Both the position numbers and the translations under genes were made by a program. The notes under the pieces were generated by a model that was not told the origin of the DNA, ran no database searches, and saw nothing but the letters and a program-made list of their open reading frames with translations. DNA of 20,874 nt from a virus: positions 1-20,874 of IMG/VR virus record IMGVR_UViG_3300033151_000140; one strand, 5' to 3'. Positions 2 through 15,745 of the stretch are shown in pieces; position 1 is the stretch's first letter; every line of letters begins with the position of its first letter.

Positions 2-100
2 GAGACAGCAGAGGCAAACGCCGATAAGTATTTCTACCGTATGGTTCAATGGCAAGAGAAGGCGATGGGGCAATACAGCCCAAGTTGGGATGAATTATGA
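2..100 (+). CDS. C-terminal end of a small Ea22-like gene, cut by the window edge
   Basis: An open frame enters from the left edge and ends at TGA 98-100, giving 32 visible residues. It starts ETAEANADK and ends YSPSWDEL. The ATGA at 97-100 is shared with the next gene, the same junction used throughout this array. The first visible residues (E-T-A-E-A-N) match, in the same frame, the LEAAEAK-type module of the downstream paralogs, so this is probably one more member of the family. Its C-terminus is different from theirs. Function unknown. Confidence 0.7.
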   Translation, partial: ETAEANADKYFYRMVQWQEKAMGQYSPSWDEL

Positions 101-369
101 ACGATAAGATTAAAGCGATAGAGCCGACAATTATCGAACGGCTACGCGCTGGCGTTGTTGAGTTTCCGGTTATCGTAGAAAACCCAGCACTTATTATGGA
201 TGCCGCAGCGGATGCGCTGGAAGCAGCAGAACTGGAACGCAATGCAGCGATACAAAGTGCAGTCAAAGCACAGCAGACCATAAAGGAAATATCAGAAGTG
301 CTGAATAGTGAGACATACCCTGATGAGCAAACACAGCGAATTATTGAAATCATAGAGAGCAAGTCATGA
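97..369 (+). CDS. Small Ea22-like coiled-coil protein, array member 1
   Basis: A 90-residue acidic, mostly helical protein. It begins MNDKIKAIE, and the first 27 nt are identical to the start of the gene at 904. Its middle carries ALEAAELERNAAIQSAV, encoded by a 32-nt block (229-260) that recurs with one mismatch at 1625-1656. It ends IIESKS, the SKS tail common to the array. The start overlaps the previous stop as ATGA, and its own stop overlaps the next ATG in the same way. The LEAAE heptad-like motif in a small early-region phage protein resembles the Ea22 group of lambdoid phages, whose role is poorly known. No catalytic motif is visible. Coding is well supported by the conserved modules; function is not. 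Confidence 0.8.
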   Translation: MNDKIKAIEPTIIERLRAGVVEFPVIVENPALIMDAAADALEAAELERNAAIQSAVKAQQTIKEISEVLNSETYPDEQTQRIIEIIESKS

Positions 370-698
370 GTAAACCAACCACGGCAGAAATTCGGGAACG
401 GATATGCAGCACAAAAGGTATCAATCATGATGACTTGATGGAGCTATCCAGAATCCTGCTCGACAGGCTGGAAGCAGCAGAGGCAAAAATGTGTGGAGGA
501 TTACCGGCTGTCGGTGGTCACGATGACTGTCATGCAAGCCAGTTCAAGAAAACTATTCGTGATCTTGAAGCAACCATAGCCGCTATATCAGAACTGCAAC
601 GATACAGGGCATTTCATGATAATTGTCGCATTGAAGACAGGGACGGAATGTTCGTTCTATATGAAGACCTTCAAGCAATCATAAGGAGTAAGGCATGA
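366..698 (+). CDS. Small Ea22-like coiled-coil protein, array member 2
   Basis: A 110-residue protein. Its N-terminus (PTTAEIRER) is shared with the gene at 1239 through a 30-nt block. The LLDRLEAAEA segment at about residues 31-40 is shared with three neighbours, and LEATIAAI at about residues 67-74 is shared with the next gene. Between them lies a Gly/His/Cys-containing insert at about residues 42-58 (GG, GGHDDCH) that is absent from the others. This is not enough to claim a metal site. It ends LQAIIRSKA. The stop region contains AGGAG followed by ATGA, so it also supplies the ribosome binding site and start of the next gene. Function unknown. Confidence 0.8.
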   Translation: MSKPTTAEIRERICSTKGINHDDLMELSRILLDRLEAAEAKMCGGLPAVGGHDDCHASQFKKTIRDLEATIAAISELQRYRAFHDNCRIEDRDGMFVLYEDLQAIIRSKA

Positions 699-907
699 GT
701 AAACGGAAATATAAACGCCACCACACAAATTCACTTATACGCGCAGAACGGGCAAATGAACTTATGGAAAAGCTAGAAGCAGCAGAGGCAACCATAGCCG
801 CTATACAGTGGAAAAGCATTTGTAAAGATAACATGGAATATCAGGCAACCATAACCTGCTTTCAGATGGGCGAACTTCAAGCAATCCTGAACAGGTGCAA
901 GTCATGA
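695..907 (+). CDS. Small Ea22-like protein, array member 3
   Basis: A 70-residue protein and the shortest complete coiled-coil member of the array. The N-terminus is basic (MSKRKYKRHH) and unlike the other members. It is followed by EKLEAAEATIAAI, which repeats the module of the preceding gene, and a C-terminal GELQAILNRCKS matching the tails of the genes at 904 and 1239. It looks like a version of the gene at 366 lacking the middle. The stop overlaps the next ATG as ATGA at 904-907. Function unknown. Confidence 0.75.
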   Translation: MSKRKYKRHHTNSLIRAERANELMEKLEAAEATIAAIQWKSICKDNMEYQATITCFQMGELQAILNRCKS

Positions 908-1242
908 ACGATAAGATTAAAGCGATAGAGGAACGTCATAGCAGAGATGCAAAAGCCATAAAAGAATGTCCAGAACAGGAGGTGTATGTTTGGGCGTATC
1001 TGTCACATGAAGACCGCGCCACACTCATTGAAGAATACCACTTGCTGGAAGGCAGGCTGGAAGCAGCAGAGCAGACCCGATTAGGATTGCTTAAAAGGTT
1101 AGCTGTACTGGACGCAAAAGATCGAGCAGCAGAGCAGACCATTGAGAAAATCGAGGAAAGCATACGAGGTGTGCCAGAGGATTTCATGGACGGTGCTGTT
1201 GTAGATATACAAGAATCAATCCTGAACAGGAGCAAGTCATGA
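904..1242 (+). CDS. Small Ea22-like coiled-coil protein, array member 4
   Basis: A 112-residue protein. A GTG at 895 is in frame, but I place the start at ATG 904 because its 27 nt (904-930) are identical to the start of the gene at 97, and because this gives the ATGA overlap seen at every other junction. The sequence HEDRATLIEEYHLLEGRLEAAEQ at about residues 35-57 combines an H-x-DR motif with the LEAAEQ heptad. A second copy of the AAEQTI module follows at about residue 75. It ends ESILNRSKS, with AGGAG just before the next start. Likely helical and acidic. Function unknown. Confidence 0.8.
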   Translation: MNDKIKAIEERHSRDAKAIKECPEQEVYVWAYLSHEDRATLIEEYHLLEGRLEAAEQTRLGLLKRLAVLDAKDRAAEQTIEKIEESIRGVPEDFMDGAVVDIQESILNRSKS

Positions 1243-1487
1243 CTGAACCAACCACAGCAGAAATCAGGGAACGGCATGACACTATTGATCGTTATAATGG
1301 TGCTGAATTTAGTGACTATATCTTTGCAGATGAAGACCGTGGAATCCTGCTAGATAGGCTGGAAGCAGCAGAGCAGACCATAAAGAAAGCGTTAGAACTT
1401 GAAGTACATGAAGCCTGCATCCCCGCACGGATACGCTTTGTGTATGCCGGAAAACTTCAAGCGGTCCTGAACAAGAGCAAGTCATGA
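1239..1487 (+). CDS. Small Ea22-like protein, array member 5
   Basis: An 82-residue protein that is the cleanest example of the modular plan: N-terminal PTTAEIRERH, a variable stretch, DRGILLDRLEAAEQTI, a second variable stretch, and the C-terminal LQAVLNKSKS. The RERH...EDR...LL..LEAAE order is typical of Ea22-like phage proteins. It overlaps both neighbours by ATGA. Function unknown. Confidence 0.8.
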   Translation: MTEPTTAEIRERHDTIDRYNGAEFSDYIFADEDRGILLDRLEAAEQTIKKALELEVHEACIPARIRFVYAGKLQAVLNKSKS

Positions 1488-1948
1488 GTAATTCAATAGT
1501 ACGGGATATGCTTGAAGCACTGGAAGTACAGCACATCAATGAACTGATGGATGATGGCAAGCATTACATTATTGAGGTTTGTAAGAGGATAGCTTCTGAA
1601 AATAAGAAACAGATGGAAACATCCGAACTGGAACGCAACGCAGCGATACAAAGTGCTGTTGTTAGTGAGGAGCGTGCTGAGAAAGCGGAGGCTGAGCTTG
1701 CACTGGTTCGCACAGAGAACGCTGATTTGATTGAAGATATTAAACAAGCGATTGATGCTGCTAACGTGTTTGCTGCCGAGATTGTTGAAATGAAGCAGGC
1801 ACTATCCTTTGATTGGGACTTGTTTAAATCTACCCAGGAATCGCTGCGGGAGCATATGCAGATTATTAAAGCCGTAGCTGAGTATATGGAAGGTAAAACA
1901 TTCCACCGGAGGGACATTATGGCGATTATTAAGCGGGGTGGGTTGTGA
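1484..1948 (+). CDS. Coiled-coil protein, last and longest Ea22-like array member
   Basis: A 154-residue protein. It shares SELERNAAIQSAV (about residues 47-59) with the gene at 97, through a 32-nt block with one mismatch. This is followed by a long predicted coiled coil (EERAEKAEAELALVRTENA and onwards). The C-terminus is distinct (FHRRDIMAIIKRGGL) and lacks the RSKS tail. Loss of the tail coincides with a change in junction type: the stop overlaps the next gene as GTGA rather than ATGA. It may act as an oligomer through the coiled coil, but function is unknown. Confidence 0.8.
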   Translation: MSNSIVRDMLEALEVQHINELMDDGKHYIIEVCKRIASENKKQMETSELERNAAIQSAVVSEERAEKAEAELALVRTENADLIEDIKQAIDAANVFAAEIVEMKQALSFDWDLFKSTQESLREHMQIIKAVAEYMEGKTFHRRDIMAIIKRGGL

Positions 1949-2040
1949 GGTGGGCTAACATCCTGATCGAAATCACACTGGCAGTAATCGCGCTGGGTGG
2001 GGCGTTCATCGTGGGGTTTCTGGTGGGGATTAAGCCTTAA
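1945..2040 (+). CDS. 31-residue single-span membrane peptide
   Basis: A GTG-started frame whose GTGA overlaps the stop of the preceding gene. It encodes 31 residues: MRWANILIEI, then a continuous hydrophobic run of about 20 residues rich in Leu, Ile, Val, Ala and Gly (ending GFLVGI), then Lys-Pro and TAA. It reads as one transmembrane helix with a positively charged N-terminus. The preceding gene's end supplies a purine-rich GCGGGGTGGG stretch, and the coupling argues that it is translated. Small phage membrane peptides of this kind can be holin-like, antiholin-like or exclusion factors, but nothing here selects among these. It was called from the overlap, the hydrophobic run and its exact fit to the gap. 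Confidence 0.6.
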   Translation: MRWANILIEITLAVIALGGAFIVGFLVGIKP

Positions 2041-2054
2041 ATCTGGAGAATTAA

Positions 2055-2549
2055 ATGATTAGCAGAAGGGAATTATTACGCAGGTTAGGGCTTAGTACGA
2101 TAGCGGTTGCCGCCGCTCCGGTTGTGGCAAAACTGAATGAACTGCCATTGCCGAAACATCGGATCAAGAAACCTGTAAAGGCCCCAACGCTACCAACGGG
2201 CGTATCACAGCTATCAATTAATGGGCAAGTTGTTGGCAGGATTGTTAGATTTTCACATGAAACACAGTCACCAGTGATTGACGTAACAAATATTCATAGC
2301 GCAAGCCGTGAATACATAACGCACTATACCAATAGAGTTGCATTGGAAATTATCCCGGGTGGTGGTGGCTATACATCTATACAGGATATACTCTCATCAG
2401 GCCATATATCAACGATTGTTTTGTGGGTTGATGGCGCGTCTTTTGAATTTGAAGGTTATATATTGAGCCACTCTATTTCCGCTGGGCTTGCCGATTTCAC
2501 AATGCAGGCAATAACGATTGAAGTAACTGGCGAGGTTGTCGTTGTTTAA
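2055..2549 (+). CDS. Tat-signal protein with a tail-tube-like domain
   Basis: A 164-residue protein with GGAG 7 nt upstream of its ATG. Residues 1-25 look like a twin-arginine signal: SRRELLR (compare the consensus S/T-R-R-x-F-L-K), a hydrophobic stretch (LGLSTIAVAAAPVVA) and a possible cleavage after VVA25. A Lys/Pro-rich linker (about residues 26-47) follows. Residues 48-164 match the pattern of phage tail tube proteins: NGQVVGRI, VIDVTN (74-79), FEFEGYILSHSISA (130-143) and a final ITIEVTGEV. The tail tube protein in this window shows the same landmarks in the same order (VIDTTT, FSFSGFVLNFSFAA, FTIEIDGDV). It lies on the opposite strand from the tail genes. A Tat-exported tail-tube-fold protein is an inference. 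The hydrophobic segment could also be a membrane anchor. Confidence 0.75.
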   Translation: MISRRELLRRLGLSTIAVAAAPVVAKLNELPLPKHRIKKPVKAPTLPTGVSQLSINGQVVGRIVRFSHETQSPVIDVTNIHSASREYITHYTNRVALEIIPGGGGYTSIQDILSSGHISTIVLWVDGASFEFEGYILSHSISAGLADFTMQAITIEVTGEVVVV

Positions 2550-3373
2550 CGCTCCTCCTCAACAGTAAACTGCTTACGCCATTTCCAGCCACCGGATGAG
2601 TCTTTAGCCTGGATAACCTTAATCGGTGTGCTGGATTTGATTGAACCATAAAAGCCCAGCTTGTGCCGTACCTGTTCGTTATCTGCACCAGTTGTTTCTG
2701 GAATAACCACCAATGGGCTGGATGTGCCAACCGTCATATCCATATGCGCTGCACTGCGGATGGTGGTATCGCTGGAACTGCCCAATGCCTCTTGTTCTGT
2801 AAGGCTATTAAATATCAACCGTGCCACCCTGAACCGCTTGCGCTCATAGGTGTATTTGCTCTGGCCGATGGTCTGCTGGGTAGCTGAGTTGTCCTGCGTT
2901 GTAACCTCATACTCTGCGCCGACTTTCGGTGTCCACGGGTCATCAATCCAAATGCGTCCAACATCCACATCCTGCCCGCCTGTTGGCGTGAGGATAACCC
3001 GCACATATCGCGCTGAGTAGCTCGCGCCCAGCAATACATGCTGTTGCTGCGGGTCATCGCTTACGCCCTGCCACAGCGTGCCTGACGCACTTGCAACGTC
3101 ACTTGCGCCACTGCTTGTCCCCAGATGCACGGCATACGTTCCCGCGCTGATGTTATGCCCGAAAATACCCACATACGATATGTCTTGAGCCGATCCCAGA
3201 TCAAAGTCCAGTTTGACCGATTCCAGCGGGCTTGCGGTTCCCAGTGTCTGCCTGAATATCTTGCCAACCTGCCTGATCTGGACGTTGGTATCATCCAGAA
3301 CCTCAGAACCATCAGAACTGTTGGTCATGGTGGCGGAGTCGCCAAGATTTTCGTAACTGATTAATGCGCCCAC
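2546..3373 (-). CDS. Distal tail protein with a discoidin-like region
   Basis: A 275-residue protein that is last in the tail operon as seen here. The start is GTG 3373, preceded by CTGGGGAT and 1 nt after the previous stop. Residues of about 30-150 (ESVKLDFDLGSAQDISYVGIF..., ARYVRVILTPT, VGRIWI) follow the beta-sandwich pattern of galactose-binding/discoidin-like domains often found in receptor-contacting tail proteins. The C-terminal part (SKYTYERKRFRVARLIFNSL and onwards) resembles phage tail proteins that follow the hub gene. Its stop codon overlaps the convergent plus-strand gene. A distal tail-tip or fibre-attachment role is inferred from position and fold pattern. Confidence 0.7.
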   Translation of the reverse strand: MGALISYENLGDSATMTNSSDGSEVLDDTNVQIRQVGKIFRQTLGTASPLESVKLDFDLGSAQDISYVGIFGHNISAGTYAVHLGTSSGASDVASASGTLWQGVSDDPQQQHVLLGASYSARYVRVILTPTGGQDVDVGRIWIDDPWTPKVGAEYEVTTQDNSATQQTIGQSKYTYERKRFRVARLIFNSLTEQEALGSSSDTTIRSAAHMDMTVGTSSPLVVIPETTGADNEQVRHKLGFYGSIKSSTPIKVIQAKDSSGGWKWRKQFTVEEER

Positions 3374-9640: not shown

Positions 9641-10060
9641 TTATGCCAGGTTATCGGTTACATCACCATCAATTTCAATGGTGAATGAACCGCGCACGAT
9701 GTCATCCATATTTGCAGCAAACGAAAAGTTCAATACAAAGCCACTGAATGAAAACGTGGTGTTCGGGCTATCGCTGAATCGAATGATGAAGTTCTGCACA
9801 TCACCAGCAAGGAACGCATCCCATGTATCAATCAACGCAGTCTCAGCAGCAAGGAAATTGAAGTCTGCGGAAATCTGACCCATGTCAGGGATACCAACGT
9901 CCTTGCCCTTGGCAGTTGATGCCAACGTAGTTGTGTCGATGACCTGACGCGAACCTGTCGGGCCCTGGAAAGAGGTTACACCACCAATCACGGCGTAGAC
10001 GATAGGGCTTGCGGAATCGCCCAGTTCAATTGTGCAGCCTTGTGTTTTTACACCAGCCAT
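9641..10060 (-). CDS. Major tail tube protein
   Basis: A 139-residue protein of the TP901-1/lambda V-like tube group, which polymerises into the tail tube around the tape measure protein. Landmarks are IGGVTSFQGP, VIDTTT (40-45), TTFSFSGFVLNFSFAA (about 101-115) and FTIEIDGDV near the end. An ATG at 10075 is in frame, but it sits on GGAG (10073-10070). I therefore take ATG 10060 (MAGVKTQG) as the start, because GGAG is then 9 nt upstream. Unlike other operon members it does not overlap its upstream neighbour. An 81-nt gap holds two hairpins, so its expression may be set separately from the head genes. Confidence 0.92.
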   Translation of the reverse strand: MAGVKTQGCTIELGDSASPIVYAVIGGVTSFQGPTGSRQVIDTTTLASTAKGKDVGIPDMGQISADFNFLAAETALIDTWDAFLAGDVQNFIIRFSDSPNTTFSFSGFVLNFSFAANMDDIVRGSFTIEIDGDVTDNLA

Positions 10061-11362: not shown

Positions 11363-11967
11363 CAGTATTCACGCCACGGGGCCAAGAGCATCTTTGTGGT
11401 TTCAAGCTCGACCATTTTCAGACTGGAATGTGTCTCGCGGTTCTCAAACAGATCCGCCGCCTGGAGCTTGATAGCTGATTTAATCGCTTCCGGCACTAAT
11501 CCTGCCAAATCCTGTGGGCTATCGTCCGATGGTTCTGAGCCCGCAACAAACGTGATCTGTACCGCATCATGCCTGAGAGCTACGCTCGGAATACTCACGG
11601 TGGTATCCCGGTAAATCACGCTGCGGCCCAGATCATGCCGGTATGCTCCAGCGTCTAGCGTGGTTAATACCTGCGGGCTGTCAGTGGTGTAATACTGGAT
11701 CTGCGTAACCGATGATAACGGCGGCAGCGGTAAGCATATCTCGGAATAGAATCCCCAGATGTCCGCGCGGTAGGTGCGCTGGACCAGCGACAGCTGATAC
11801 TGCTTTTCAACAAACTGCCGTGCAGCTGCAATCATCATGTGCAGGATCATGTCGTTGTCGCTGGTATCTTCGCAACGGCAATGCACCTTCATTTCATGCA
11901 GGCCAACAGGTTCGATAACAGGCACAACCGTTTCGGTCAGTTGCCTGGTTGATACTTTATAAGACAT
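11362..11967 (-). CDS. Head-tail connector, phiE125 gp8/HK97 gp6 type
   Basis: A 201-residue protein. The early segment (PVGLHEMKVHCRCEDTSDND) and the helix (MIAAARQFVEKQYQLSLVQRTY) match connector proteins of the phiE125 gp8 group, as does the final ETTKMLLAPWREY. It would form the ring below the portal. The start lies 11 nt inside the end of the accessory cassette gene upstream, so the six-gene cassette sits between this connector and the capsid gene, where many HK97-like phages place them next to each other or separated by only small genes. Confidence 0.88.
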   Translation of the reverse strand: MSYKVSTRQLTETVVPVIEPVGLHEMKVHCRCEDTSDNDMILHMMIAAARQFVEKQYQLSLVQRTYRADIWGFYSEICLPLPPLSSVTQIQYYTTDSPQVLTTLDAGAYRHDLGRSVIYRDTTVSIPSVALRHDAVQITFVAGSEPSDDSPQDLAGLVPEAIKSAIKLQAADLFENRETHSSLKMVELETTKMLLAPWREY

Positions 11968-12643
11968 CTTTCAGGTTTTCCCATGCAGTGCCATCTGCAA
12001 TTTCATCAAGGCTAAATTGTTTGTAGCTCATTTCGTGCATCCACTCTGACCTGTCACCACGATTTAACGGCGCATCAACAGACGGTGAACAGACTGGAGC
12101 GCAAGCGTTTTGATCATCCAGGCAGACGGTTGGTTTACCCTGCTTGATTGCTTCAAACATGCTCGTTCCTTTGCTGCCAATACAAATATCATGCGCGGCT
12201 ATCTGCGCCCCTAAACGGACTGGGCCAACGCCATTGGCTGGATGCTTGCGAATATTGACCACCCCGTACCGCTGCCGGGCTTGCATGGCTATATCTGATA
12301 CGTCTTGTCCGTAATCAGCCAGGATAAGACAGCTATCCTCTCCGGGCTGCAGCGGCTGCAGTTCCGGTTTCGGTCTTGGTGCTGTGCCTGTTGCGTACTT
12401 TCGTGACCCGTCCGGCATCAGCCAGAAGATAGCCACACAATCAGGATCGCCCCACCATGCGCGGTCAATCATCAATGGTGTTGAGTGCTTCCACTGCTCA
12501 AACGCGAAATGCGGGCCGCTTATTACATGGAAGTCATGCGCCTCAACGTATGGGCTGGGCGTTGTATCAAAACCTGCCGACTTAAACGCATTCGCATGAT
12601 CGCACTGGTGCGGCATGTTTAGGTTGTAGTGCATCAGCCCCAT
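11957..12643 (-). CDS. Putative GT-B-like glycosyltransferase
   Basis: A 228-residue protein. The C-terminal half resembles the sugar-nucleotide-binding half of GT-B enzymes such as capsule (KpsC/KpsS-like) transferases: VNIRKHPANG (about 129-138), a spacer, AAHDICIGSKGTSMFEAI and KQGKPTVCLDD (about 149-177). The H-P, the Ser/Thr-rich G-S-K-G-T loop with Glu164 and the G-K-P are the conserved positions. The N-terminal half (HFAFEQWKHSTPLMIDRAWWGDP) is not recognised. At 228 residues it is shorter than typical two-domain GT-B enzymes. AGGGG 7 nt upstream supports ATG 12643, which overlaps the previous gene by 10 nt. Donor and acceptor are unknown. The cassette context suggests glycan modification. 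Confidence 0.65.
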   Translation of the reverse strand: MGLMHYNLNMPHQCDHANAFKSAGFDTTPSPYVEAHDFHVISGPHFAFEQWKHSTPLMIDRAWWGDPDCVAIFWLMPDGSRKYATGTAPRPKPELQPLQPGEDSCLILADYGQDVSDIAMQARQRYGVVNIRKHPANGVGPVRLGAQIAAHDICIGSKGTSMFEAIKQGKPTVCLDDQNACAPVCSPSVDAPLNRGDRSEWMHEMSYKQFSLDEIADGTAWENLKDVL

Positions 12644-13302
12644 AAATTACCCCTGATTTCGCCGTGCCTCGCCTCGCTTACCCATAAATCATTTACATCT
12701 GCCGGATCAGGTTTGCCGTGGAACACCACGACTGTTGCGCCTTCCGGTAATCCATTCCGACAGTGGTATTTGTAGCTGATCATGTCGGTGCTTGAGAAGT
12801 ATTCAACGTCCAGTTTTCCTGCATCCCGCAGTTCTGTAATCCACTCCTGATCGCCCCACAATATCGGCGGTCTGTTAATCGGCGGCCAGTGTGCAATGGC
12901 AGGATCAAATTCATCGTGAATGATCTGTGCCGAATCGCCCTCCCAGTACATCATCGAACTCTGACAGCCACCATGCCCGGATACCGCCCAGTTCAGCCCA
13001 ATGCGTAGCTGATGACCGATCAGTGGCGCGACAAGGCCATCCAGTGAGCCGGTGATAACAACATCGAGATCAAGCCACAAATTGCGCGTATGACTCACTG
13101 ACCCGCTGAACAGGTTGGTTTTCCCCCACCATCCAGGTATGTCATTCAGTGGCTGTACGTTGTGGATACCTTCTATGTGATGTTCAGATATGCACTGGAA
13201 TATGTGTGGTTCCGATAGATGACGGTCAACCTGCCTTTTTAATATCCGTACCTCTTCATCAGGCGCGTGGTGGTTGGTGTTCATCGTCCAGACTGTGATC
13301 AT
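12634..13302 (-). CDS. Putative GT-A-like glycosyltransferase
   Basis: A 222-residue protein. RNLWLDLDVVITGSLDGL (about 73-90) carries a DxD-type metal/nucleotide-sugar motif (D78-L-D80) in the context seen in GT8-like and related phage and marine-bacterial transferases. Further landmarks are GWWGKTNLF (57-65), the WGDQEW motif (149-154), ISYKYHCR (175-182) and VVVFHGKPDP (191-200). All are in the expected order. No signal or membrane segment is present, so it acts in the cytoplasm. ATGA at 13302-13299 couples it to the methyltransferase gene. The sugar and the acceptor cannot be read from the sequence. Confidence 0.75.
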   Translation of the reverse strand: MITVWTMNTNHHAPDEEVRILKRQVDRHLSEPHIFQCISEHHIEGIHNVQPLNDIPGWWGKTNLFSGSVSHTRNLWLDLDVVITGSLDGLVAPLIGHQLRIGLNWAVSGHGGCQSSMMYWEGDSAQIIHDEFDPAIAHWPPINRPPILWGDQEWITELRDAGKLDVEYFSSTDMISYKYHCRNGLPEGATVVVFHGKPDPADVNDLWVSEARHGEIRGNLWG

Positions 13303-13793
13303 ATTTTAATCAGCCTGATCTCTGAATCAATCCCCCTGTCCCGCCTGATAACCACCATATCAATATATGGCTGATCAATGATTGGCTCTAATCGGTTGTC
13401 AAAAGTAATCATCAGGTAACGCGCATCTGCTTTTAACAACTTACGCATTGCCTTGCGCTGCTTTTCCGGTGAGAAATGATTCAGCACCCACAACACCATC
13501 AAACAGTCCGATTCCGGCAATTTGTCCTTCAACATGTTGAGCTTTTTAACGCCCTCTGTACGTGGAATCAAATCATACGGAGCATAGTCACAACCAAGCG
13601 TTATGCGCTTAATCCAATTCAGATCACCAGCACCAATATCAGCGATAGACTCAATGCCGTGCTTGGCTACCATTTCAGGTATCCACGTGCGCTGTATTTT
13701 GGTTGCGCCAATTGTAGAACCACTTCCGCAGGGTGTTTCAGGAAATCCGCTGCGCCAGCCCCGCTGGTATTCATCATGGTTCATGTATTTCAT
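13299..13793 (-). CDS. Small class I SAM-dependent methyltransferase-like protein
   Basis: A 164-residue protein. It has a Rossmann motif I, IADIGAGDLNWIKRI (about 50-64), followed by CDYAPYDLIPR, where the acidic residue at the end of strand 2 would be Asp74. DCLMVLWVLNHFSPEKQ is in the motif IV/post-IV position. The N-terminal part (GFPETPCGSGSTIGATKIQRTWIP) resembles a family of small methyltransferases that start with a Gly-rich stretch and R-x-W-[IL]-P. The fold is compact and lacks an obvious substrate domain. The substrate is probably a small molecule or a cassette product. The start is ATG 13793, 3 nt after the previous stop; a second in-frame ATG at 13784 is possible. Neither has a clear Shine-Dalgarno. 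Confidence 0.7.
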   Translation of the reverse strand: MKYMNHDEYQRGWRSGFPETPCGSGSTIGATKIQRTWIPEMVAKHGIESIADIGAGDLNWIKRITLGCDYAPYDLIPRTEGVKKLNMLKDKLPESDCLMVLWVLNHFSPEKQRKAMRKLLKADARYLMITFDNRLEPIIDQPYIDMVVIRRDRGIDSEIRLIKI

Positions 13794-13796
13794 TTG

Positions 13797-14297
13797 CTAA
13801 AATGCGTATCCGCTGTATTCAATGTCAGCTTTATGATGCAGTGCAATGAAATCCACCATTTCGTTATCGTAATGATTCCGGTAGTCAGCTATTCCACAGT
13901 TGTTCAGATGGGGTAGTGTTTCCGGCTTCATCCCAATCGTGTTCTGTATGGCATCCCAGTCGGCTTGCAGGTTTTCATATCTGCCGATAAAGTCGCAACC
14001 ATCCAGAAAGTACATGGCGTTATGCCTGATGCCATTATTTAGAATGCGATCCATGAGGTATTCTTTAAATCCAATACCTTCATATTTAGGCATTATCTTC
14101 TGTTTGCGATAACAGGAATACATCCTGTCCCACGGGTTACGCATGAATCCAAAAGAGTAATATTCATGCTCTGCCTTGAACCGTGGCAAGTGCATCGCTC
14201 CAGCCGATTGCCCGCCAAGCAAAGCATACGCACTATTGCCGCCGGTCCTCGGAACATGGATAAATATGAACTCTTTGCCGTGGTTAATAATTGCCAT
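13797..14297 (-). CDS. PAPS-dependent sulfotransferase-like protein
   Basis: A 166-residue protein matching the Sulfotransfer_2-type family. FIFIHVPRTGGNS (10-22) corresponds to the PAPS 5'-phosphosulfate loop (usual form H-x-P-K-T-G-G-T-S, here with Arg for Lys). FGFMRNPWDRMYSCYRK (49-65) corresponds to the 3'-phosphate site with Arg53 and Ser61. It is short for the family, which is often 200-300 residues, but both cofactor motifs are intact. It would transfer sulfate to a carbohydrate or other acceptor. The frame also allows GTG 14336. I prefer ATG 14297, which places the PAPS loop at the usual distance from the N-terminus. Neither start has a good Shine-Dalgarno. Its leader is A+T-rich and contains two DnaA boxes. 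Confidence 0.8.
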   Translation of the reverse strand: MAIINHGKEFIFIHVPRTGGNSAYALLGGQSAGAMHLPRFKAEHEYYSFGFMRNPWDRMYSCYRKQKIMPKYEGIGFKEYLMDRILNNGIRHNAMYFLDGCDFIGRYENLQADWDAIQNTIGMKPETLPHLNNCGIADYRNHYDNEMVDFIALHHKADIEYSGYAF

Positions 14298-14328
14298 AAA
14301 TTGTTGTTTTATAGTGTTTTGTGGTAAG

Positions 14329-14348
14329 TTATCCACAGGTTATACACA
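14329..14348 (+). promoter_or_regulatory. Two tandem DnaA boxes
   Basis: TTATCCACA (14329-14337) and TTATACACA (14340-14348) are both exact matches to the DnaA box consensus TTATNCACA. They are in the same orientation and 11 bp apart start to start, about one helical turn. They lie in the leader between the second DUF115 gene and the sulfotransferase gene. The adjoining stretch 14281-14340 is about 30% G+C by count, well below its surroundings. Host DnaA binding is a prediction. Confidence 0.6.
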
Positions 14349-14363
14349 GGCAGATAATGATGA

Positions 14364-14978
14364 TTAAACAAAATCAGCAATTTGTGCGAACGGGAACCAG
14401 GTCATGGCGCTGCCGGGTGTGCAGTTATACACTGGCGGTATCTCCCCACGTTCAGCCTGGTCTGCAATGTGCTTGTAATCGTACAAAAGCCCGGTCTTAT
14501 CGGGCTTGTCGAACAATGACCACTTCCGCAATGGCTGCGGGTACTCGCCTGCAACATCTGATAGCCCTTTGAAATAATGCCGTGCTTCACCCTTGCGGTA
14601 CGTCATGTCGTATCCACAAAGCAGGATGGGGTCACATCCATAGTGAACAGCCAGATTCAAACACTGCCACCCGCTGGAGTGTCCGAAGCTGATGTAATCC
14701 TTATCCGTGGATAACCCATCAAGCCATAGACCCGGCTTATGCCGGTATCCGTACCGGTCGCATATGTCCTTGTCCCAGTGCCACTGGTCACAATCCAGGT
14801 CCACTTTGCCATTGTGCTTGTGCCATGCAGGATCACATGCCAACCAAACATCAAGGTCAAAGTCCTTATAGCTGTTATTCATACCAAACAGCATCACCTT
14901 GCCCGCTGCTTTTAACTCGCGCAGCTGGTCGGCCACCGGTGCCAAAGATGGGCCGGTGCCTAAAATCACGCCGATCAA
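14364..14978 (-). CDS. DUF115/Maf-like protein, second copy
   Basis: A 204-residue protein homologous in pattern to the next gene upstream. It has GTGPSL (7-12) as a Gly-rich nucleotide-binding-type loop, GMNNSYKDFDLDVWLACDP (32-50) and SSGWQCLNLAVHYGCDPILLCGYDM (101-125). The order G-x-G-P-S, N-[ND]-x-[WY], D-x-x-x-x-x-D, S-G-x-Q-x-x-N-L-A and L-x-G-[FY]-D-M is that of the DUF115 (MptE-like) fold. This fold is also the catalytic domain of Maf flagellin glycosyltransferases, which transfer nonulosonic acids. It shares ATGA with the upstream gene. It lacks the N-terminal extension of its paralog. Activity as a glycosyltransferase is inferred from the family. Confidence 0.75.
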   Translation of the reverse strand: MIGVILGTGPSLAPVADQLRELKAAGKVMLFGMNNSYKDFDLDVWLACDPAWHKHNGKVDLDCDQWHWDKDICDRYGYRHKPGLWLDGLSTDKDYISFGHSSGWQCLNLAVHYGCDPILLCGYDMTYRKGEARHYFKGLSDVAGEYPQPLRKWSLFDKPDKTGLLYDYKHIADQAERGEIPPVYNCTPGSAMTWFPFAQIADFV

Positions 14979-15745
14979 AATATATCCTCAAGGCTGTGAA
15001 CTGGAAAAGCATCCAGCGCGGTTTTCCGGGAACAGTTCAATATCTCGATCCCGTACTGTTCCGGCTTGATCGTCCTGAATGATTCGACCAGGCTCCCAAA
15101 GTTGGTGTCTGTCCTGAACTTCTCAGGATGGTCGCCAAACCAATGTGATTTACCACCGTGACAGTGCATATCAAAGCCCAGCAGCACGATCCTCGTTGCC
15201 CCAAGGTGCAGGGCAAGGTTGATGGCCTGATAGCCGCTATTGCTGCCGGAATGAACGTATTCAGGGTCTTTAGACAGTCCCCTTTCCCTAATCCTACACC
15301 GGAGTTTATGAACGCCCCATGCTTCTGGATTGTTCTTGCCCCAGTTTGTATTGCCTGGCGGATCACATGACCAGCATTTGCCCTCAAAATCACGGGCTAC
15401 ATCTGCTATGTGATACTTCCACCAGTGAAAGTCGGCAGCATATAAATGGTCTGCATCAACCATTCGCCATGTGTCATTGACTGCAATTATTTCTTCGCAG
15501 TTTTCCTTGAGCGTTTTGCAGTCTTCTTTCGTGATTGACGGACCGCTGGCGCAGATGCCAATGGTTTTCTTGGCCTTGGTTTTTTTTTTAATCTCCTTCG
15601 GCGCTGGTATCACCTTGGTTTCGTATTCATCCGCCACACCAATATCTATCAGGTGCAAGCGTACAGCTTCAGGTGGGTCAATCAACTCGCCAACATTCGG
15701 CATGTTGTAACCATGACCACAAAAAGGAATTTTAACTATAAGCAT
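14975..15745 (-). CDS. Fusion of a small head-gene domain with a DUF115/Maf-like domain
   Basis: A 256-residue protein directly after the capsid gene. Residues of about 1-45 (KIPFCGHGYNMPNVGELIDPPEAVRLHLIDIGVADEY) follow the pattern of the tiny proteins that phages often encode next to the capsid gene (hydrophobic start, G-x-x-I-D, acidic/Ala helix, G-x-A). A basic linker (KKKTKAKK, about 53-60) is encoded by an A10 run. The DUF115 domain follows: SGPSITKED (67-75), IAVNDTWRMVDADHLYAADFHWW (87-109) and NSGYQAINLALHLG (169-182), then VLLGFDMHCHGGKSHWFGDHP. A GHS-rich loop after FDM could bind metal or substrate. No clear Shine-Dalgarno precedes ATG 15745, and a hairpin lies 7 nt upstream of it. 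A nonulosonate-type glycosyltransferase role is a family-based inference. Confidence 0.75.
   Translation of the reverse strand: MLIVKIPFCGHGYNMPNVGELIDPPEAVRLHLIDIGVADEYETKVIPAPKEIKKKTKAKKTIGICASGPSITKEDCKTLKENCEEIIAVNDTWRMVDADHLYAADFHWWKYHIADVARDFEGKCWSCDPPGNTNWGKNNPEAWGVHKLRCRIRERGLSKDPEYVHSGSNSGYQAINLALHLGATRIVLLGFDMHCHGGKSHWFGDHPEKFRTDTNFGSLVESFRTIKPEQYGIEILNCSRKTALDAFPVHSLEDIF
15580..15589 (-). other. A10 run with an internal Shine-Dalgarno at a domain junction
   Basis: The coding strand has ten A in a row (codons K53-K55 plus the first base of T56). AAGGAG lies 3 nt upstream of the run, separated from it by ATT. In the normal frame this encodes the Lys-rich linker between the small N-terminal domain and the DUF115 domain. 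Loss or gain of one A leads to a stop within roughly 40 codons by my reading, so slippage would release the N-terminal domain with a short tail. Confidence 0.6.

Follow-up and report, generated by a model that had tools for sequence, protein, structure and literature searches.

The tail tube proteins of phages are not known to act anywhere but in the cytoplasm and the virion. Amongst the exclusion proteins described so far, Ltp of TP-J34 is presented as a prophage-encoded lipoprotein that is exported, halts DNA injection and has the tape measure protein as its target, and Glo of the V. cholerae phage K139 is listed as a soluble periplasmic exclusion protein (PMC3952083). SieA of P22 and gp15 of HK97 are reported to act at the inner membrane (PMC10883804). 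A further prophage protein, Tab, is described as working against the formation of siphophage tails, an activity tied to the tape measure protein at the stage of assembly (PMC10884400).

The window analysed here, which is the whole of a stretch of 20874 bases making up an IMG/VR record, carries at 2055-2549 a gene whose product is very probably a Tat-tagged protein of the tail tube fold. By description it resembles Ltp and Glo (PMC3952083) in its predicted export to the envelope and in what appears to be a prophage cargo slot, but it differs from the lipoprotein Ltp in that the passenger is a tail tube domain and the predicted route is Tat. The likeness to Tab (PMC10884400), again by description, is one of general idea, that of a prophage protein directed against siphophage tails. 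With lambda gpV and the PF16460 siphophage tail tubes it shares the IDVT..S..REY, FxFxG and TIxVxG motifs and the fold as modelled, whereas the usual N-terminus is replaced by a Tat-like signal and a basic linker, most of the GLxDxGE turn is missing, the gene lies off the tail operon and the PF16460 score is 15.2 bits against a cut-off of 28.4. The model also suggests the superfamily fold of the Hcp tubes of type VI secretion systems (T6SS), with a VIA Z of 9.6, but neither Pfam nor NCBIfam matches the protein to an Hcp family, and no T6SS genes were seen in the window.

As the protein looks like a tail tube subunit and carries a Tat-like tag, a component that is normally used for tail building within the cell may reach the envelope. 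The reading preferred here, to which we would give a chance of roughly 40%, is that it is a periplasmic superinfection-exclusion factor which docks on the tails of incoming siphophages. The tagged protein would be expressed from a prophage or early in infection, the Tat pathway is predicted to export it in folded form to the periplasm or to the outer face of the inner membrane, and removal of the signal after A25 would leave an arm that is basic and rich in proline. Once exported, the tube domain could bind part of the incoming tail, be it the tube end, the tail tip or the tape measure protein, for which the stacking-loop motif that it retains might serve, and would then block the entry of DNA and so bring about superinfection exclusion. 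A narrower form of this idea, in which the phage took over the tail tube protein of another phage lineage, gave it a Tat signal and uses it as a periplasmic decoy, so that the tails of rival siphophages are capped or jammed during injection, is regarded as unlikely.

Counted in favour of exclusion are the start and the Tat-like N-terminus, the tail tube homology, the strand and position off the operon, the cargo slot, the loop motif, a domain that is not a recent copy, and the precedents. Counted against it are that no signal-bearing homolog was found, that the window has no integrase or repressor, that no promoter-like sites rose above the shuffle background, that TIGR01409 and PF16460 score below their cut-offs, and that the carried domain is the one thing linking the Tat-tagged protein with exclusion or with any part of the tail. 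If true, an envelope-directed tube subunit would put a structural fold to an unusual second use, it would point to a directly testable way of stopping siphophage injection, and it would suggest a search pattern for exclusion proteins, that of structural folds joined to export signals in cargo slots.

Table 1. Features of the tail-tube-like gene, its surroundings and the counterpart position in a relative. Positions are those of the window unless a locus is named.
Feature	Position	Strand	Remarks
Six short overlapping genes	97..1948	+	Upstream of 2055-2549; overlapping start and stop codons
One-helix membrane peptide, M/VRWANILIEITLAVIALGGAFIVGFLVGIKP	1945..2040	+	31 aa, GTG start overlapping the preceding stop; directly upstream of 2055
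Gene of the probable Tat-tagged tail-tube-like protein	2055..2549	+	164 aa; stop TAA at 2547-2549
Predicted twin-arginine signal peptide, MISRRELLRRLGLSTIAVAAAPVVA	2055..2129	+	Residues 1-25; TIGR01409 and TATFIND-style rule
Basic, proline-rich linker, KLNELPLPKHRIKKPVKAPTL	2130..2192	+	Residues 26-46; read from the sequence
Putative tail-tube-fold domain	2193..2546	+	Residues 47-164; profile against shuffles, PF16460 below cut-off, alignment-guided model
Loop at the stacking-loop position, VIDVTNIHSASREYITHYTN	2274..2333	+	Residues 74-93; alignments, modelled strands E58-69 and E94-101
Last gene of the tail operon	2546..3373	-	275 aa; phrog_8610; 72% identical to the L011 homolog
The phage's own ordinary tail tube protein	9641..10060	-	Starts at MAG; PF16460 47.2 bits against 28.4; phrog_158
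TylF-like methyltransferase in the convergent slot	L011:7319-7975	-	E 6e-12; counterpart position of 2055-2549

A first-pass annotation had placed the gene at these coordinates, outside the tail operon and on the other strand, beside a small membrane peptide, and all of this holds, with the coordinates and landmarks agreeing with the reading-frame list and the translation, the ORF list putting the gene off the operon and the peptide being present where it was said to be. A TGGAG about 7 nt 5' of the ATG at 2055 is the ribosome site, and by eye no comparable site accompanies any other in-frame ATG, GTG or TTG within the first 100 codons; the N-terminus is therefore most likely part of the product. 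In all the other reading frames the longest frame competing over the gene has 80 codons, and third-position G+C is close to that of the neighbouring genes on the same strand. These features bear on the least probable of the explanations considered, that of a decaying or chance fusion in which a captured fragment of a tail tube gene and a signal-like sequence make a product without function. That no other example of the architecture turned up in the searches and that the domain has a long branch, both described below, is in keeping with such a fusion, but the frame of 164 codons is intact and has a good ribosome site, its third-position composition is near that of its neighbours and the core motif of the family has been kept despite the divergence.

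The N-terminus reads M-I-S-R-R-E-L-L-R-R, followed by an uncharged core of 15 residues, a VVA end and then K, which fits the twin-arginine signal of residues 1-25 (SRRELL, core and VVA) that the first-pass annotation had proposed. The core is weakly to moderately hydrophobic, with a mean Kyte-Doolittle value of 2.0. When the isolated N-terminus of 41 residues was run against the NCBIfam models, TIGR01409 (TAT_signal_seq) gave 16.1 bits, 0.6 short of its cut-off of 16.7, whilst the run with the full-length protein did not list this model; there was also a weak match of the protein to TIGR02811, the model of a Tat target in the formate dehydrogenase region. A TATFIND-style rule written for this analysis, covering the twin-arginine motif and the core, was passed by 20 of the 5778 ORFs with a length of 90 aa or more from the loci collected by then; the present protein is one of the 20, and by eye the only other one to look like a classical Tat substrate is a host protein of L028. 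The features of a Tat substrate that are present are thus the motif and core, by the rule, and the cleavage-like VVA, by eye, so that the Tat signal is a prediction argued from motifs and cleavage would probably fall after A25.

Such a signal weighs against a role inside the cell, in which the protein would be a tail tube mimic that poisons the tail assembly of other phages, or a decoy for a host defence that senses the tail tube protein, such as DSR2, with the N-terminus being a membrane anchor or having no role. There is some encouragement for this idea in the precedent of Tab, described as a prophage-encoded inhibition of tail assembly (PMC10884400), in the complexes of DSR2 and tail tube protein that appear amongst PDB entry titles, and in the retention of the stacking-loop region, but a cytoplasmic role leaves the Tat motif and the VVA end unexplained and PADLOC gave no match for the protein, so that it seems quite improbable.

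The carboxy-terminal part had been said to be like a tail tube protein, and on this the comparisons agree. Against the phage's own tail tube protein a pairwise BLASTP gave E=1e-6, and the same pair was recovered in a six-frame search of the record (E=5.9e-5, residues 46-161). Shuffling gave Z values of 12.0 against that protein, 11.6 against the one in L098 and 10.9 against the one in L119. A profile of 11 tail tube proteins, from which the present protein was left out, scored 26.0 bits over residues 44-164, where the best of 5000 shuffles reached 12.8 bits. PF16460 (Phage_TTP_11) was found at 15.2 bits with an E of 0.017 over residues 56-163, which is below the cut-off of 28.4, and the protein is therefore no member by Pfam's own rule. 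Residues of about 47-164 are, as judged from sequence, a divergent tail tube domain with a homology beyond chance. All the homologs that were found are ordinary tail tube proteins without a signal, and the protein is therefore a divergent offshoot of these, although this does not give its role. Two further kinds of phmmer match were taken as chance, namely weak ones to the capsid P domains of nodaviruses (5yku and 6jjc, window 2187-2546 on the plus strand, E 0.002-0.003), which span most of the domain, and one to designed armadillo repeats, which breaks up into pieces of 6 bits or less.

With an alignment that included tail tube proteins as its guide, AlphaFold2 gave a model with a pLDDT of 55 and a pTM of 0.42, in which residues 12-47 lie below a pLDDT of 50. 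The model matches tail tubes in Foldseek with E values down to 5e-6, also matches a library of viral structures, gives the VIA Z of 9.6 against Hcp and gene transfer agent (GTA) tubes and matches the fold of lambda gpV as well. As tail tube rows were present in the modelling alignment, this agreement in fold is partly built in. A model made from the single sequence was too poor for use (pLDDT 43) and had no match below an E of 0.9. The structural side of the proposed tail tube likeness thus comes from the alignment-guided model, whose input included tail tubes; the fold as predicted does not speak against the likeness, though it is no independent check of it.

In the loop between modelled strands 2 and 3, at residues 70-93, VIDVTNIHSASREYI aligns with the IDVT..S..REY of related tail tube proteins, and in the alignments the GLxDxGE turn at the end of the loop is mostly gone and the first hairpin is shorter. 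In phage 80alpha the beta2-beta3 loop is described as the stacking loop, which inserts into the next ring (PMC7048315). It is possible that the retained beta2-beta3 motif serves for docking in the protein considered here.

The phage has an ordinary tail tube gene as well, which occupies the slot between the tail terminator and tape measure genes and whose product matches the phrog_158 major tail protein at 5.6e-20. The exported-looking protein had been called a look-alike of this one, and whilst the similarity is above chance, it is not, in the tree tests, the nearest relative of the phage's own protein. In a maximum-likelihood tree of 15 tail tube domains the phage's own protein pairs with that of L016 at a support of 99, and the Tat-tagged domain falls outside this pair, weakly beside L098 and L119 (support 44), on a long branch of 1.03. 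A topology in which it is a recent duplicate of the phage's own gene, made after the split from that of L016, was rejected with a p-AU of 0.028; an older duplication, with a p-AU of 0.47, was not rejected. An older duplication or a foreign origin of the domain is thus possible.

Further proteins that combine the two parts were sought widely. No second one was found by tblastn in the phages or the plasmids searched, where the best plasmid match (E=8) was a Devosia protein of other make-up. Scans of viral contigs with the protein and with two alignments gave no second member, the last of them returning a single ordinary tail tube protein (L119). Nor did one come from 36 genomes whose terminases are related, which gave another ordinary tail tube protein (L098), from 142 genomes of the order of G011, which gave one more of the ordinary kind (L120), or from 385 Alphaproteobacteria searched with the protein. 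PF16460 and a profile of eight sequences were run on sampled Gammaproteobacteria, and the eight-sequence profile on Alphaproteobacteria, and amongst these 754 sampled genomes further proteins with a tail tube domain were found. By eye none of the 30 matched frames (L112-L144, some of which are the same gene twice) has a Tat-like start in its first residues; L137, which lacks a hydrophobic core, has SRRRL just 5' of its likely start codon. The 40-residue signal used on its own in tblastn returned nothing, possibly owing to the low-complexity filter. Amongst the proteins inspected there is no second export-tagged tail tube protein, a statement that is limited to these, and no paper in the literature searched was recognisable, from the part of each that was available, as being about one.

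The genes upstream have overlapping start and stop codons and apparently form one operon with the tail-tube-like gene, with which the small membrane peptide is possibly co-transcribed. Several of the six share coiled-coil stretches of the LEAAEQTI type and starts of the PTTAEIRER type, and look like a tandem family of paralogs. No promoter-like sites were found above the background of shuffles. Downstream, there is an overlap of 4 bp between the stop of the gene and the stop of the last tail gene, which runs towards it.

The nearest relative that is sequenced across this slot is L011/L015, with 59-63% identity in the tape measure protein and 66 and 72% in the two last tail proteins; the contig of L016 stops about 140 bp beyond the tail gene. 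In L011/L015 the convergent overlap is likewise of 4 bp, and the gene in the counterpart position is the methyltransferase, which ends a run of genes on the same strand with a DUF4224 protein, an integrase and an HTH repressor-like gene, the last identified by eye in L015 and without a Pfam match. As there is no integrase or repressor within the window itself, lysogeny is inferred from this one relative, and the tail-tube-like gene probably sits in the cargo slot of a temperate lineage. Right after the repressor-like gene of L015, at 14115-14483 on the minus strand, lies a gene for a protein of 122 aa with a Sec-like signal by eye and no Pfam match, which is a candidate envelope-acting prophage gene in its own right.

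The methyltransferase of L011 makes the slot one for general cargo, and this also suits an exported protein that is of use to the lysogen or changes the envelope in some manner that has nothing to do with phage exclusion, with a domain like that of tail tubes or Hcp co-opted for some envelope partner; the model is matched equally well by Hcp structures and by tail tubes. Those sequence relatives whose match extends over the domain are tail tube proteins, though, and apart from the Tat-signal models there is no match to Hcp or to an envelope family in Pfam or NCBIfam, and such a role seems unlikely.

The surroundings of the gene also speak to whether it might encode an ordinary minor component of the virion, of tail tube fold, in which the hydrophobic stretch at the N-terminus is no export signal. 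Tail tube folds are described as recurring across many parts of the tail (PMC7048315) and the homologs recovered are all of the ordinary tail tube kind, but the gene is on the strand opposite to the tail operon and outside it, the phage already has tail terminator and tail tube genes, and no counterpart was found in the L015 sequence searched (16972 bases, incomplete). This possibility, whilst less remote than a role in the cytoplasm, is distinctly improbable, and the exclusion factor remains the reading that we prefer.

Elsewhere in the window, the major capsid gene and the head-tail connector are separated by six genes, at 11957-15745 on the minus strand. Two of these are MptE-like, one is sulfotransferase-like and the three others look by eye like methyltransferase or glycan genes, and counterparts of some of the six follow the capsid gene in Tetraselmis virus S20 (L007) and in L003, L004 and L020.
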